A stretch of 64,000 nt of DNA. It comes from Sulfurimonas hydrogeniphila (GTDB taxonomy: Bacteria; Campylobacterota; Campylobacteria; Campylobacterales; Sulfurimonadaceae). Location: NCBI RefSeq assembly GCF_009068765.1, contig NZ_CP035534.1, positions 1,364,001 through 1,428,000 of the forward strand, written 5' to 3'. A program made the position numbers and the translations under genes. Each line of letters opens with the position of its first letter. The first letter of the stretch is position 1. Below the pieces are notes generated by a model. The model did not search any database and was not told the origin of the DNA. It saw only the letters and a program-made list of their open reading frames with translations. Shown here piece by piece: positions 25,538-45,167 of this stretch.

Positions 25538-25561
25538 ATTTTTTGGAACCGGTACTTCAGT

Positions 25562-26972
25562 CATAAGTATCTACACAACTTAAAACTCCATCTGCATAAA
25601 GTCATTGAGTTCTTTTTTAATGCTATGGAGTTCTTCAATATCATAAAGTTCAAGCATATCCATAGCAGAGAAGAAGTTCCATAAACCTGCTAACAGAGCC
25701 GGAGAGGTAGATATCTTCTTTCTTGCTACCAATCTCCCGCTTAATCGAACTAAAAACTTTCTAATTGCCAGCATGTTTTTACATATTTGTATGTTCAATT
25801 TCCCATACAAGCAAACAGGCATAAGAGGCAACAAACAAGCGTTTAAATATAGCCTGTGCACTCTCTTGCTGCCATTTTTCCAAATTAAACCCTGAGCTTT
25901 TTAACAGTTTAAAATACGTTTCTATATTCCATCTGTAATAATACCACAATCCTATCCTTGTTATATCAACATCTTTTGGAAGATTGCTTAACAGAAGCCA
26001 GGTAGCAACTGTATTGTTCTTCTCATCTATGAGTCTTTGGACTATAAATCTGTTTTTTATTGGCTTGCCTTTTACTTTTTGTTTTATTGTTTTACCTTGT
26101 GGCGTATCTGTCTTTTGATAGCTGTCTCTTGTTATAAGTATATCTACCGTATTAACATAAATTTTTACTTTTTTATTTTGATACTGTATAGTTTTTACAT
26201 ATTTGCCTTTATCCATTTTTTTGGACAACTCTTTTTGGGTAATATCTTCATCTTCATACCTGACTTTGACATTGTCTAATGCTCGTACTATATATAAATC
26301 CTCTTTTTGCAGTCCTCTGAAAAACCCCGCACTGTCTGCTTCTCTGTCAATTACATGTACAATTTTCTTTTGTATGTTGAGGGATTGATTGATATAAGCT
26401 ATTCTTTGTGTTAATTCACCGAGATGGGTAAGATGACTCTTCATTGTAGGATTATAGCTTGAGAGCACTTTATCTTGTGTCTTTAGGTTCTGTACCAAGG
26501 GAAGGATTGGTTTGCCGCTGCTGCTCTCAATTGCAAGGGAACTTTGCAACTCATATCCTCTTGATGAAGCATTATTTACATTGCTTCTGCGTTTTCGTAT
26601 ACAATCTGTTTTTGCCGTATGGTTTTTATAATTTATGAGTGACCAGTCATGGGCTACAAGTATATATTCATCACTGCTTTTATTAATAGTTTTAATCCCT
26701 CTTGTAAGCATTGGCTCATTGAGTGACTCTATATCTACATGCTCATTATTGTAAAATCTCCAAGCACTTTGTGCTTGTGAAAATCCTTCAGTCTTTTGTA
26801 GCAGGTTTAATCCATTGGTACTGTGTTGTTTATGATTCATATGACTTTTTACCAGTCTCATATATCTTTTTTTTTAAACGCTCTTCCATTGCATAAACTC
26901 TCTTGTTTTTTAAAATCTTATGCAATATCTATTCCGCTTTCTTTGCTTTTTTGAGTTGTGTAGATACTTATG
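25562..26972 (-). mobile_element. IS4-family insertion sequence, copy 1 (frameshifted)
   Basis: 1411 bp bounded by inverted repeats CATAAGTATCTACACAACT (left) and its complement (right), and flanked by the 8-bp duplication ACTTCAGT (25554-25561 and 26973-26980). It is one base longer than copy 2. The extra A near 25782 breaks the transposase frame. The two copies otherwise look identical, which implies recent transposition or duplication. Confidence 0.9.
25580..26861 (-). pseudogene. IS4-family transposase, frameshifted copy
   Basis: The frame from 26861 encodes the first 358 or so residues identically to the intact copy, then ends early (EIEHTNM) because of a one-base insertion in the run encoding the residues after EIEHTN; the remaining C-terminus is in another frame down to 25580. 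The first two catalytic Asp (VAHDWSL, DREADS) and the Y-R-E-K segment (YYYRWNIETYFKLLKS) lie before the break. The truncated protein lacks about 70 C-terminal residues and is probably inactive or inhibitory. Confidence 0.9.
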
Positions 26973-27025
26973 ACTTCAGTGCCGGCTGTTGCAATAATCT
27001 TGCCACTCTCAGCCGGCACTGAAGT

Positions 27026-28435
27026 CATAAGTATCTACACAACTTAAAACTCCATCTGCATAAAGTCATTGAGTTCTTTTTTAATGCTATGGAGTTCTTC
27101 AATATCATAAAGTTCAAGCATATCCATAGCAGAGAAGAAGTTCCATAAACCTGCTAACAGAGCCGGAGAGGTAGATATCTTCTTTCTTGCTACCAATCTC
27201 CCGCTTAATCGAACTAAAAACTTTCTAATTGCCAGCATGTTTTTACTATTTGTATGTTCAATTTCCCATACAAGCAAACAGGCATAAGAGGCAACAAACA
27301 AGCGTTTAAATATAGCCTGTGCACTCTCTTGCTGCCATTTTTCCAAATTAAACCCTGAGCTTTTTAACAGTTTAAAATACGTTTCTATATTCCATCTGTA
27401 ATAATACCACAATCCTATCCTTGTTATATCAACATCTTTTGGAAGATTGCTTAACAGAAGCCAGGTAGCAACTGTATTGTTCTTCTCATCTATGAGTCTT
27501 TGGACTATAAATCTGTTTTTTATTGGCTTGCCTTTTACTTTTTGTTTTATTGTTTTACCTTGTGGCGTATCTGTCTTTTGATAGCTGTCTCTTGTTATAA
27601 GTATATCTACCGTATTAACATAAATTTTTACTTTTTTATTTTGATACTGTATAGTTTTTACATATTTGCCTTTATCCATTTTTTTGGACAACTCTTTTTG
27701 GGTAATATCTTCATCTTCATACCTGACTTTGACATTGTCTAATGCTCGTACTATATATAAATCCTCTTTTTGCAGTCCTCTGAAAAACCCCGCACTGTCT
27801 GCTTCTCTGTCAATTACATGTACAATTTTCTTTTGTATGTTGAGGGATTGATTGATATAAGCTATTCTTTGTGTTAATTCACCGAGATGGGTAAGATGAC
27901 TCTTCATTGTAGGATTATAGCTTGAGAGCACTTTATCTTGTGTCTTTAGGTTCTGTACCAAGGGAAGGATTGGTTTGCCGCTGCTGCTCTCAATTGCAAG
28001 GGAACTTTGCAACTCATATCCTCTTGATGAAGCATTATTTACATTGCTTCTGCGTTTTCGTATACAATCTGTTTTTGCCGTATGGTTTTTATAATTTATG
28101 AGTGACCAGTCATGGGCTACAAGTATATATTCATCACTGCTTTTATTAATAGTTTTAATCCCTCTTGTAAGCATTGGCTCATTGAGTGACTCTATATCTA
28201 CATGCTCATTATTGTAAAATCTCCAAGCACTTTGTGCTTGTGAAAATCCTTCAGTCTTTTGTAGCAGGTTTAATCCATTGGTACTGTGTTGTTTATGATT
28301 CATATGACTTTTTACCAGTCTCATATATCTTTTTTTTTAAACGCTCTTCCATTGCATAAACTCTCTTGTTTTTTAAAATCTTATGCAATATCTATTCCGC
28401 TTTCTTTGCTTTTTTGAGTTGTGTAGATACTTATG
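27026..28435 (-). mobile_element. IS4-family insertion sequence, copy 2 (intact)
   Basis: 1410 bp with the same 19-bp perfect terminal repeats as copy 1, flanked by the 8-bp duplication ACTGAAGT (27018-27025 and 28436-28443). That duplication is the reverse complement of the one around copy 1, because the two insertions occupy equivalent positions in opposite arms of a palindrome. Both copies have the same orientation. Confidence 0.93.
27044..28324 (-). CDS. IS4-family transposase (IS50-like)
   Basis: A 426-residue DDE transposase. The N-terminal DNA-binding domain has AQSAWRFYNNEHVD (near residue 30), as in Tn5-type enzymes. VAHDWSLINY supplies the first Asp (near 70), VIDREADSAGFF the second (near 170), and YYYRWNIETYFKLLKSSGF the YREK signature with the catalytic Glu (near 325). 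8-bp target duplications fit the IS50-like subgroup. Probably functional. Confidence 0.93.
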   Translation of the reverse strand: MRLVKSHMNHKQHSTNGLNLLQKTEGFSQAQSAWRFYNNEHVDIESLNEPMLTRGIKTINKSSDEYILVAHDWSLINYKNHTAKTDCIRKRRSNVNNASSRGYELQSSLAIESSSGKPILPLVQNLKTQDKVLSSYNPTMKSHLTHLGELTQRIAYINQSLNIQKKIVHVIDREADSAGFFRGLQKEDLYIVRALDNVKVRYEDEDITQKELSKKMDKGKYVKTIQYQNKKVKIYVNTVDILITRDSYQKTDTPQGKTIKQKVKGKPIKNRFIVQRLIDEKNNTVATWLLLSNLPKDVDITRIGLWYYYRWNIETYFKLLKSSGFNLEKWQQESAQAIFKRLFVASYACLLVWEIEHTNSKNMLAIRKFLVRLSGRLVARKKISTSPALLAGLWNFFSAMDMLELYDIEELHSIKKELNDFMQMEF

Positions 28436-28504
28436 ACTGAAGTACCGGTTCCGAGAAAACATCTGTTTTTTGCGTATTATACTCAAGTATGATAAACTTA
28501 TACT

Positions 28505-42500: not shown

Positions 42501-43204
42501 TGACACTGCAACAGTGTTCTGAGAGGATTCGTCAAGTAGTCATACCCATTGTAAATCGTAAATATCCCGTATAAAATCACAGCCACTGAAGAGAGGCTCA
42601 TCATCATATTTCTAAAACTCGTCGCAGAGGCAAGAGAAGATAAAAATCCTAAAGAAAACATTGCCGGAATAGTACTGATACCGAAAATAAACATTACCAA
42701 AGCACCGTAAAGCGGACTTGCCGTACTTGCAGCCGTGATGGCAAAAAAGTAAACAAAACCGCAAGGAAGCAGTCCGTTTAACATACCGAGAATAAAAAAG
42801 CTTGTATTTGATTTTGAGTGTAAAATAGCCTGAAAAGATTTTTTGTAAAAATGTGATGAAGAGATGGAATGTTCTATCAATGTAAGAAATTTTATTTTTC
42901 CCATTAACGACAAACCTGCCAAAATCATTGCAGTTCCTGCGATGATGAGCAGTGTACCGTTTGCGGTATTGCTAAAAGTTGCCACCCCGCCGATTGCGCC
43001 AAAGAGTGCTCCTAAAATTGTATAGGTCAACACACGTCCAAAGTTATACAGCAGATGAGCCACTGTTTTGGAGACCTTGGAGCTTGCAGGTTCAATTTTA
43101 ATGGTTGAATAGGCAAGGACGATACCCCCGCACATACCGATACAGTGTCCAAAAGAGCCTAAAAAAGCGATAGTGACAATTGTCAATAAATTTACCGTAT
43201 CCAC
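42497..43204 (-). CDS. DsbD_2/SafE-like membrane transporter
   Basis: A 235-residue protein with six hydrophobic helices and the paired motifs GHCIGMCGG (near residue 19) and NGLLPCGFVY (near 141), as in the DsbD_2 / sulphite exporter TauE-SafE-like group often linked with cbb3 oxidase and copper handling. The Cys/Met/His in the first helix could bind copper. It follows a NosL-like gene by 1 nt, which supports copper traffic. Its 3' end overlaps the convergent gene by 4 nt. Confidence 0.8.
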   Translation of the reverse strand: MDTVNLLTIVTIAFLGSFGHCIGMCGGIVLAYSTIKIEPASSKVSKTVAHLLYNFGRVLTYTILGALFGAIGGVATFSNTANGTLLIIAGTAMILAGLSLMGKIKFLTLIEHSISSSHFYKKSFQAILHSKSNTSFFILGMLNGLLPCGFVYFFAITAASTASPLYGALVMFIFGISTIPAMFSLGFLSSLASATSFRNMMMSLSSVAVILYGIFTIYNGYDYLTNPLRTLLQCH

Positions 43205-43205
43205 A

Positions 43206-43709
43206 CTATTGTCCCAGCAGCTGTTTTCTTATTTTTGGATCTTTCATTGTTTCGCCTCGGAGCATTTTTAGACGCATCGTATCGAAATCGACCATGCCCT
43301 CTTTTTTGTGCTCATAAGCTCCAAAGCCATACCCCATAGGTGTCAGTTCATTTAATGTATAATAGGCCTTTCTTCCGTCTATCCATCGGTGCGTATCTCT
43401 GCTCATCACCCAGATAACGGCCCTGTCTTGAAATTTTTTGTCACTGAGCCAATGCACAAAATCCCCATGATCATGAAAAAACCAGGTCTTCCCATCGGGT
43501 GCGACAACCTGAGAGGCATATGTCAAATCATCTATGACCATGCCACAGTCACTGTCTTGAAACTTATGCAACTCCATTTTCAAAGGCAACTGTTTAAGAT
43601 TTCCCTCTTTGATAACAACCATTTTCTGCGTTTTTTCCAAAGAGAGAAAAAGTGTAACAATAACAATAACAATAATTCCGATAAGAAGAATCGGCATAAA
43701 TTTTTTCAT
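43206..43709 (-). CDS. NosL-like copper-binding protein, membrane anchored
   Basis: A 167-residue protein with one N-terminal membrane helix (residues about 4-24) and a periplasmic domain like NosL. DSDCGMVIDDLTYASQV (near 53) carries the C-G-M copper motif, and FFHDHGDFVHWL (near 77) the following NosL-like strand. NosL proteins deliver Cu(I) to nitrous oxide reductase; here no nos genes are in view. It is not a lipoprotein, unlike typical NosL. It probably works with the DsbD_2-like protein encoded next. Confidence 0.78.
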   Translation of the reverse strand: MKKFMPILLIGIIVIVIVTLFLSLEKTQKMVVIKEGNLKQLPLKMELHKFQDSDCGMVIDDLTYASQVVAPDGKTWFFHDHGDFVHWLSDKKFQDRAVIWVMSRDTHRWIDGRKAYYTLNELTPMGYGFGAYEHKKEGMVDFDTMRLKMLRGETMKDPKIRKQLLGQ

Positions 43710-43766
43710 ATTTTTTTAACCTTTATGTGAAATATGTCCTTCAGCCCAATTAAACAGCTTTTTTAA

Positions 43767-43830
43767 AACCGGTACTTCATACAATTTAGACTTTTGCACA
43801 CCCAATAGTCGGCACTAAAGTACCGATTCC
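43767..43830. repeat. Degenerate relative of the IS-target palindrome
   Basis: AACCGGTACTTCA at 43767 and CGGCACTAAAGTACCGATTCC-like sequence (43810-43830, written here as CGGCACTAAAG + TACCGATTCC) match the outer arms of the palindrome rebuilt at 25545-28452, including the preceding T run, but the left inner arm has diverged. This empty copy confirms that the palindrome is a repeat family rather than part of the IS. Confidence 0.6.
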
Positions 43831-43866
43831 GATGAAGCATTATATAGCGAAATTGTTACAGTTGTA

Positions 43867-44343
43867 TTAATCTCTTCTTTTTTTACCTTTTCCCAGATCA
43901 TCATAATGCAAAAACCTTTGTAAATCCTCTTGCAAATCCTCGTCCAAAGCATCCCAGATTTCTTTTTTTTGGGCATATCTGGGGAGATCTTCTTTTTTTG
44001 ACTTTTTAATATCCCGGATAAGGTAATGATAGCGTACAATTTTTTTCGTGTATTCACTGATAAAAGGCCAGTTTTTTATAATCTGATAACTTTTCTCTTC
44101 ATGGTCCGTAAAACTCCATTCATGAAACTCATAATCCTCTGCATCTTTTTTATAGGCAACAAAAGGCTTTCCGATATCATGCAAAAGTCCTGCAGCAAAA
44201 AACTTGAAATCTCCCGCTTTGAGGGCATAATATGTCACACGAAGCGTATGCAGCAAAACACCGTGCTGATGCCATTTGTTCTGTGTAAAAAAGAGCGAAT
44301 CCAAAAAAGCATAGGAAAATATTTTGTTGTTTGTTGTATTCAC
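43867..44343 (-). CDS. HD-domain phosphohydrolase
   Basis: A small HD-superfamily protein (158 residues from the preferred start). KWHQHGVLLHTLRVTYYAL gives the first His, GLLHDIGKPFVAY the HD pair, and FTDHEEKS a further metal ligand. An ATG at 44370 is open, but a GTG at 44343 follows AAAGGAG by 5 nt and overlaps the xerH-like stop as GTGA, so I choose it. HD proteins of this kind are nucleotidases or (p)ppGpp-type hydrolases; the substrate is unknown. Confidence 0.8.
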   Translation of the reverse strand: MNTTNNKIFSYAFLDSLFFTQNKWHQHGVLLHTLRVTYYALKAGDFKFFAAGLLHDIGKPFVAYKKDAEDYEFHEWSFTDHEEKSYQIIKNWPFISEYTKKIVRYHYLIRDIKKSKKEDLPRYAQKKEIWDALDEDLQEDLQRFLHYDDLGKGKKRRD

Positions 44344-45167
44344 AGTGACTCCTTTGCCATAGGATGACATACTTCTACAGTATCTTTTAAATCCTGTTTT
44401 TGAATATGGGTGTATATTTGTGTTGTCAGCAGTGAAGCATGCCCTAAAAGTTCCTGTACTACCCGTAAATCGGCTCCACCACGAATCAGTGAAGTTGCAT
44501 AGGAGTGACGCAGTACATGGGGGGAGACTCCAAGATATTTTTGTGTTATTTTATACGCGGAAATTCGACTGAGTTTTCCTCCCTGGTAATTACACCAGAC
44601 ATACTCTTTTTGCATGTTACATGTAAGCAGATAGGCATCTATTGCCTGTTTTGCAACTTTTGCCAGAGGAACAATGCGCTCTTTTTCTCCCTTTGCGTGC
44701 CTTACATGTAACCATCCGCCTTCTATATCGCCGAGTTCCAGCTCCAGACATTCGCTGATACGCGTGCCGCTTGCATATAAAAACAGTATAAGGGCATAGT
44801 CTCGCAAGCCTATCCAGTTGCTTCTGTCTATCAGGTCCAGACCGTGTAATATATCTTCATAAGATAAAAATTTCGGAAGAAGTTTTGGAATTTTTGCAAA
44901 TTTCAGTTTCGTTTTTTCACTGCTGAATTGCTGTCTGTAGCAAAATTCAAAAAAGGCATTGACAGAGGAGAGCTTTCTGTTGAGTGTGCGTTTGTTTTCA
45001 TACGAAGACAAGAGAGTCATAAGTTTTTGTGTATCAAGAAAAATCAACGGTTTGGAGAGTTTTTCTTCAATGGCACACAGATCACTTTTGTACGCCTCTA
45101 CACTCTTTTTACTCAAAGCTCTTGTTACAGTAATATACTCTAAAAAAGCTTCCAGTTCGTTTGACAT
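44340..45167 (-). CDS. xerH: Tyrosine recombinase, XerH/XerD-like
   Basis: A 275-residue tyrosine recombinase. The N-terminal SAM-like core-binding domain covers residues about 1-85, and the catalytic part shows ASGTRISE (Arg), KGEKERIVPL (Lys), PHVLRHSYATSLI (His-x-x-Arg), LLGHASLLTTQIYTHI (His and Tyr). Campylobacterota usually resolve chromosome dimers with one such enzyme, XerH. No second Xer and no attachment-site or integron context is seen. Two TTACATGTAA copies lie in the gene. It abuts the lipoprotein gene with no gap. Confidence 0.85.
   Translation of the reverse strand: MSNELEAFLEYITVTRALSKKSVEAYKSDLCAIEEKLSKPLIFLDTQKLMTLLSSYENKRTLNRKLSSVNAFFEFCYRQQFSSEKTKLKFAKIPKLLPKFLSYEDILHGLDLIDRSNWIGLRDYALILFLYASGTRISECLELELGDIEGGWLHVRHAKGEKERIVPLAKVAKQAIDAYLLTCNMQKEYVWCNYQGGKLSRISAYKITQKYLGVSPHVLRHSYATSLIRGGADLRVVQELLGHASLLTTQIYTHIQKQDLKDTVEVCHPMAKESL

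Follow-up and report, generated by a model that had tools for sequence, protein, structure and literature searches.

The element lies at positions 43767–43830 of the window, the 64,000-nucleotide stretch of DNA that we analysed (C1:1364001–1428000 of the Sulfurimonas-like genome G000, 2.34 Mb in one contig), and is housed in the intergenic gap between two minus-strand open reading frames (ORFs; 43206–43709 and 43867–44370). Its left arm, AACCGGTACTTCA, reads at 43767–43779 and its right arm, CGGCACTAAAGTACCGATTCC, at 43810–43830, with a T run (43760–43764) immediately 5′ of the left arm. The right arm falls within an intact REP unit on the minus strand (43807–43830), which consists of a GGAA foot (43827–43830), the hairpin TCGGTACTTTAGTGCCGA (43809–43826) and the dinucleotide CT (43807–43808); this unit matched our genome-wide REP pattern exactly and was also recovered by a strict hairpin scan. 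The left arm is weaker, a 13-nt match to the 5′ half of a CCGG-type hairpin. Its sequence, the alignment of sister copies and the intact left REP of G153 (same genus) mark 43765–43779 (plus strand) as a decayed left REP, in which an AAAA foot (43765–43768) replaces GGAA, the half-stem CCGGTACTTCA persists and its distal counterpart is missing; at the left-arm position, the nearest sister copy (C1:2129743) reads AACCACTCCTTCA. Between the arms, the interior (43780–43806, TTAGACTTTTGCACCC...) has diverged and, by BLAST and alignment, is mostly common to the copies at C1:2129743, 280335 and 2274084. Ahead of the left REP, alignment delimits a plus-strand linker (43750–43764) that is TTAAACAGCTTTTTT-like, ends in the T run and is found before GGAA feet elsewhere.

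A first-pass annotation of this DNA had read the element as an empty relative of a palindrome split by IS copies elsewhere in the window, with matching outer arms, a preceding T run, similar length (64 versus 71 bp) and a diverged interior. The comparison held for the interior, for the T run and for the lengths, the rebuilt palindrome measuring 71 bp when joined from 25545–25561, 26973–27025 and 28436–28452; as for the arms, the right one is an exact unit of the family and the left one, 13 nt with an AAAA foot, agrees less well. BLAST of 43700–43900 against its own genome gave at least 51 matches with E ≤ 0.001, the best of them outside the query itself at 3.3e-18 (40 of 105 initial candidates scored), and the similarity of the right arm to other repeats of the genome is far beyond chance. 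The repeating unit is a hairpin of 22–24 nt, not the whole 64 bp, and the element is a REPIN with a decayed left half. As DNA, 43767–43830 folds modestly on the two strands (z −2.8 and −2.2) and the rebuilt 71-bp REPIN far better (−34.4 kcal/mol, z −12.1). A search of 43000–44500 against Rfam yielded no match up to E 1.

At the same site, G153 carries a full 67-bp pair with the left REP intact, in which each REP folds as a hairpin of its own (z −2.3); G102 carries 248 bp, where by eye one or more units are intact and others partial. In five relatives without the element the gap is 18 (G157), 9 (G166), 35 (G086), 6 (G087) or 10 bp (G161), lengths that follow the ends of each individual alignment. 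The DNA missing from these five, as judged from the ends of the synteny alignments, amounts to approximately 109 bp (roughly 43727–43835) and is thus larger than the 64-bp element. Because the occupied sites of G000, G102 and G153 differ from one another and five relatives lack the element, we conclude that it entered the gap in the ancestor of these three genomes, or separately in each, and that it has since become different in each.

The REP unit and its pairing into REPINs

Alignment of 70 core sites in register defined the REP unit as GGAA followed by an 18-nt hairpin and CT, in several stem versions. A degenerate 24-mer of this form (up to 3 mismatches) found 143 sites genome-wide, and a second pattern covering other stems found 36, with 0 matches to the reversed control in either case, which bears out the proposal of the first-pass annotation that the element belongs to a repeat family with further copies in the genome. 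The foot emerged equally from a scan that did not presuppose it: among 103 strict 8-pair hairpins in 126,420 bases of the genome, GGAA directly preceded 74, and no other tetramer preceded more than 3. The bases scanned comprise the window plus further stretches, some of them selected for similarity, and the proportion of 74 in 103 therefore does not describe the genome as a whole. The foot is not the canonical GT[AG]G head, GTAG being absent among the 15 tetramers listed before these 103 hairpins.

In 99% of 86 distinct GGAA units a C directly follows the hairpin, and in 80% a T comes next. Positions −6 to −1 of the foot are T/C rich in the same units, with C at −1 in 74%; this pyrimidine tract is a feature of the family, and the T run at 43760–43764 fits it. 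Stem versions differ by paired changes (CCCG/CGGG, CCCA/TGGG, CCTA/TAGG and TCGG/CCGA). In the genome stretches that we retrieved, the hairpin centre fell within an ATG-initiated ORF of at least 150 aa for only 4 of 78 hairpins, though such ORFs cover 73% of the bases. REP units are extragenic and dispersed over the chromosome.

The units pair at fixed distances. For all 13 neighbouring pairs of units with outward feet no more than 150 bp apart, the inner spacer is 23, 26 or 27 bp, so that the inverted pair, or REPIN, measures 67–71 bp; neighbours with feet facing each other (23 pairs) are separated by 10–65 bp. A GGAA lies upstream at a spacer of 23, 26 or 27 bp for 22 of 78 distinct right-hand units, compared with at most 2 units for each of the other lengths between 10 and 49. 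When partners were chosen by spacing and GGAA alone (14 distinct), 107 of 112 stem cells paired, against 78% when the halves were re-dealt. The remaining 56 of 78 right-hand units have no GGAA partner at the fixed spacing, and many units are therefore single or worn. The family thus shows the two inverted REPs and fixed short spacer by which a REPIN is recognized, and the copy at 43767–43830 has a broken left REP. Secondary structure, which the first-pass annotation had named as a check, gave a graded answer: strong for the rebuilt REPIN, modest for the element itself and negative for the pair beside the transposase gene described below, which folds no better than its shuffles (z −0.5).

The RAYT, its relatives and the spread of the REPs

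A whole-genome search found a single Y1_Tnp (HUH) gene. It encodes a REP-associated tyrosine transposase (RAYT, TnpA-REP) of 169 aa (C1:1545209–1545718, minus strand) and sits directly between inverted REP units, which end approximately 40 bases before its start and begin 4 bases after its stop; G102 and G153 have a RAYT at the same locus. The protein scores 42.9 bits against Pfam PF01797 (cut-off 23) and 74.8 bits against the NCBIfam model for REP-associated tyrosine transposases (NF047646), under the cut-off of 80, as do all eight relatives scanned (64.6–74.6 bits). The HuH and Tyr columns are invariant in the 23 aligned RAYT rows, and the residue after the conserved W is A in 15 of them. 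A PDB sequence search returned IS200-type transposases at best (E 0.048, not significant), and a prediction of the G153 RAYT structure made without an alignment had a mean pLDDT of 38.6 and was set aside.

Some RAYT match occurs in 100 of the 228 genomes of the family, many of them weak and to longer Y1-like frames. A closer set (about 43% identity or more, two members being fragments) comprises 27 genomes including our own, 25 from the same genus group and 2 from another. Within 500 bp of the RAYT at the 26 non-own loci, a relaxed scan recovered 229 hairpins, with the feet GGAA (65), GGAT (14) and GGAG (7). A GGAA hairpin stands within this distance at 19 of the 26 loci, on both sides in 13, and the relaxed scan found none within 500 bp at the other 7. 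Because a lone Y1 HUH transposase lies between the repeats and its relatives mostly have adjoining GGAA hairpins, the system is a REP/RAYT system (REPtron) in the broad sense, with the foot GGAA in place of GT[AG]G. The enzyme association anticipated in the first-pass annotation is thereby found, and we conclude that the RAYT very probably spread the REP hairpins. Three RAYTs of the same clade, at L082 (G163), L072 (G167) and L075 (G112), adjoin hairpins without GGAA (GGGC, GGGG or no clear foot).

The stems of the hairpins beside RAYTs vary by lineage. Our own REP pattern (up to 2 mismatches) is present in 7 of 228 genomes (G153, 274; G102, 147; G000, 133; G157, 44; G176, 23; G179, 3; G152, 1) and has 0 matches in the remaining 221; the single match of its reversed control was in G074. 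Identity to our RAYT is 88% in G153, 88% in G102 and 64% in G176 (a fragment), and G086 has a RAYT that is 72% identical, yet other stems. A second stem type was positive in 16 of 135 genomes, including G138 (51 copies), G140 (36), G114 (14), G115 (14), G145 (11), G120 (5) and G216 (5); it was defined beside the RAYTs of G216, G140, G114, G120, G138 and G115, which are positive by construction. Among the matches listed, 5 of these 6 source genomes have copies away from the RAYT, and all 5 sites of G120 adjoin it. In the draft genomes G157, with its 44 REP copies, and G145, with its 11 units of the second type, no RAYT match was found; either the gene is missing from the draft or the REPs have outlived the enzyme.

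On a RAYT tree of the 23 aligned rows (alignment and tree both leave out L076 and L084, with in-frame stops, the partial L085 and L086, and the distant L087–L089), stem types that we assigned by hand required 10 changes; shuffled labels needed 14.8 on average, and 0 of 200 shuffles were as low. For two stem types clustering is clear, for GTGAGG it is not (59 of 500 shuffles as low), and the GTACGAC type shows no clustering among the 23 rows. REP type goes with RAYT lineage overall, and not every stem type clusters. Two candidate rules involving the foot were rejected. A base-pairing guide from foot to cutting site would predict covariation of the last foot base with the post-hairpin dinucleotide, and this was not clear: CT is commonest after GGAA (36 of 80), and GGAT (n = 18) is followed by CT in 5, CA in 4, CG in 4, CC in 3 and others in 2. 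By eye, the residue after the conserved W did not match the foot consistently over the 23 rows: D and E occur in the GGGC and GGGG rows, rows with L, V, S and one with Q also have GGAA, and two W-A rows, L080 and L082, have no GGAA foot.

From this evidence, 43767–43830 is in all likelihood a partly decayed REPIN of a REP family dispersed by the single RAYT of the genome. By analogy with work on TnpA-REP, the RAYT would bind the foot and the folded hairpin as single-stranded DNA, would cut close by, near the CT that follows the hairpin, as the Escherichia coli TnpA-REP is described to cut at CT in the part of PMC8266576 available to us, and would move or copy the REPIN as a pair. The copy at 43767–43830 would no longer be mobile, given the damage to its left foot and left hairpin. 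The first-pass annotation had also suggested that the family might have its own mobilizing enzyme; the RAYT between the REPs is a candidate, and of the kind that the annotation had named for checking, its role as mobilizer being our inference. An alternative that we consider improbable is that the hairpins persist chiefly because of a host role such as transcription termination, protection of mRNA 3′ ends or provision of gyrase or IHF sites (roles of REPs cited in PMC1525189), their spread being old or due to recombination. Functional hairpins, too, would be expected to be extragenic and to show compensating stem changes; however, the foot is constantly GGAA and the inner spacers are fixed, neither of which obviously serves termination, stem types cluster overall on the RAYT tree, and five relatives have no element in this intergenic gap.

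The anatomy of REP/RAYT systems and REPINs is already known (PMC2817692, PMC3116915, PMC6006769, PMC3733652), and a table in PMC12306157 counts palindromes in S. gotlandica; the comparisons that follow refer to the parts of the cited papers available to us. Dispersal by the RAYT would agree with canonical REP/RAYT systems (PMC2817692, PMC6006769), which likewise have a Y1 HUH gene between inverted hairpins, more than 100 dispersed extragenic copies and different hairpins beside different transposase lineages. Unlike the canonical GT[AG]G, the foot here is GGAA (GGAT, GGAC, GGGC or GGGG near some relatives), and unlike a canonical RAYT, ours scores below the NCBIfam cut-off. A GT(A/G)G head is the rule in this literature, with subclass 2.6 and class 3 (foot CnGA) as exceptions. 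No GGAA foot appeared in the portions searched of the published REP/RAYT work, nor among the entries listed for GGAA-bearing REP sequences or for REP, REPIN or RAYT in Sulfurimonas; supplementary tables may list one. Among the groups of PMC6006769, our RAYT resembles TnpAY1 subclass 2.4 (NH[IFV]H, YIxNNP) in its NHIH and YIKNNP motifs, unlike that subclass with its WQ and GT[AG]G feet; W-A in 15 of 23 rows contrasts with the WQ of subclasses 2.4–2.7. It resembles class 3 (W[TA], foot CnGA) in W-A and a non-GTAG foot, often CGGA-A here, unlike that class with its Y----Q. The REPINs of Pseudomonas fluorescens SBW25 (PMC3116915) similarly comprise two inverted REPs with a near-constant short spacer, about 70 bp in all, and occur in tandem clusters and close to RAYTs; their foot and stems differ.

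We propose, as a matter on which the evidence stands about evenly, that a clade of RAYTs in Sulfurimonas and its near relatives has abandoned the GT[AG]G code. Its members would read a GGAA foot (GGAT, GGAC, GGGC or GGGG in side branches), would have a changed guide-contact region, mostly WA rather than WQ, and would thus constitute a separate REPtron class, foot and stem both having drifted under one transposase fold. REP/RAYT systems are among the smallest bacterial mobile DNAs, and recognition by their enzymes is known from few members, with GTAG feet. If the proposal is true, the guide code of RAYTs could be tested across natural variants. The RAYTs of 27 genomes, most beside GGAA hairpins with differing stems, form a natural series for separating foot-reading from stem-reading residues.

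Insertion sequences at the REP tips

Elsewhere in the window (25545–28452), one 71-bp REPIN has been struck twice by the same IS, once in each hairpin tip, and its 53-bp middle remains between the two. On the plus strand, the 5′ part of the left hairpin up to the IS lies at 25545–25561 and includes the 8-bp repeat ACTTCAGT; the middle, ACTTCAGT...ACTGAAGT, lies at 26973–27025; and the 3′ part of the right hairpin, ACTGAAGT ACCGGTTCC, lies at 28436–28452. IS copy 1 (25562–26972; minus strand, from its orientation relative to copy 2) occupies the left tip with target duplication ACTTCAGT, and IS copy 2 (27026–28435), with its DDE transposase gene on the minus strand, occupies the right tip with target duplication ACTGAAGT.

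The genome holds at least 18 copies of this IS (13 full, 4 interrupted by a nested element and 1 remnant; 40 of 70 initial candidates scored). Among the copies found, the ends abut the REP tip sequence ACTNNAGT on the left in 18 of 18 and on the right in 17 of 17, the abutting motif being ACT(TC, GA, TT or AA)AGT. Equal 8-mers flank 13 of the 17 two-ended copies; in the remaining four the two ends differ, as they would if the copies had recombined or moved as a composite. The bare 8-mer ACTTYAGT has 287 matches genome-wide, against 409 for its reversed control, and because the REP sites number 133 (up to 2 mismatches), most but not all with the 8-mer, a large share of its occurrences lies outside REPs, yet 18 of 18 insertions are in REPs; the 8-mer by itself would not account for the targeting.

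The transposase is of the DDE_Tnp_1 type (PF01609, 29.5 bits, over the cut-off of 23); the nearest model is an IS4 one, NF033590, with 86.5 bits against a cut-off of 160. Relatives (42–55% identity) occur in five other genomes, where by eye the flanks are mostly AT-rich and show no REP tips, and REP targeting may therefore be special to the IS of our own genome. At four loci of G211 (L098, L105, L108 and L111), distant relatives of the IS seem, by eye, to occupy AT-rich, partly palindromic sites.

The tight association of IS and repeat, 18 of 18 IS copies found lying in REP tips, could be read as the mark of a MITE, that is, a non-autonomous derivative of the DDE element, moved by the targeting IS. 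We judge this very improbable: the ends of one IS compared by eye, CATAAGTATC...GATACTTATG, share nothing with the repeat ends GGAA...TTCC, repeats abound in G102 and G153, where no relative of the IS was found at E ≤ 1e-20, and the IS sits within the repeat and is flanked by an 8-bp duplication, the arrangement of an insertion at a target. The IS is a target-specific passenger of the REPs and not their mobilizer, and of the two characters that the first-pass annotation had offered, REP-like or MITE-like, the anatomy bears out the former and the IS ends speak against the latter. Least credible of all is an integron attC-like or CRISPR-like array: repeats do cluster in places with periods of roughly 80–93 bp, but the period is that of a REPIN plus a variable outer spacer (10–65 bp), not of cassette genes or spacers, and the units are dispersed across the chromosome, single pairs included.

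With the REPs taken as a RAYT-dispersed family, the IS found only at hairpin tips makes this a case of one repeat family hosting another. A precedent is ISRm22, an IS4-family element of Sinorhizobium meliloti, for which the part of PMC1525189 available to us describes 9 of 9 copies at the REP symmetry axis with 6-bp repeats. As with ISRm22, all IS copies found here are in REPs at the symmetry axis, some with unequal direct repeats; unlike ISRm22, the target repeat is 8 bp rather than 6 bp, and host and REP are different.

Two further arrangements of IS, REPIN middle and IS, at C1:1828407–1833696 and 1894503–1898584 (L037, L045, L049 and L050), have an identical middle. In the first, the same sequence, ACTAAAGT, stands at both outer ends (1828407 and 1833696), as if this pair had moved as a composite unit carrying the REPIN core. 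The four split IS copies are interrupted at the same position (about 408–416). The nested element in L047 (1996–3101; C1 about 239.9–241.1 kb), which looks ISAs1-like, has its transposase reading frame in two pieces.
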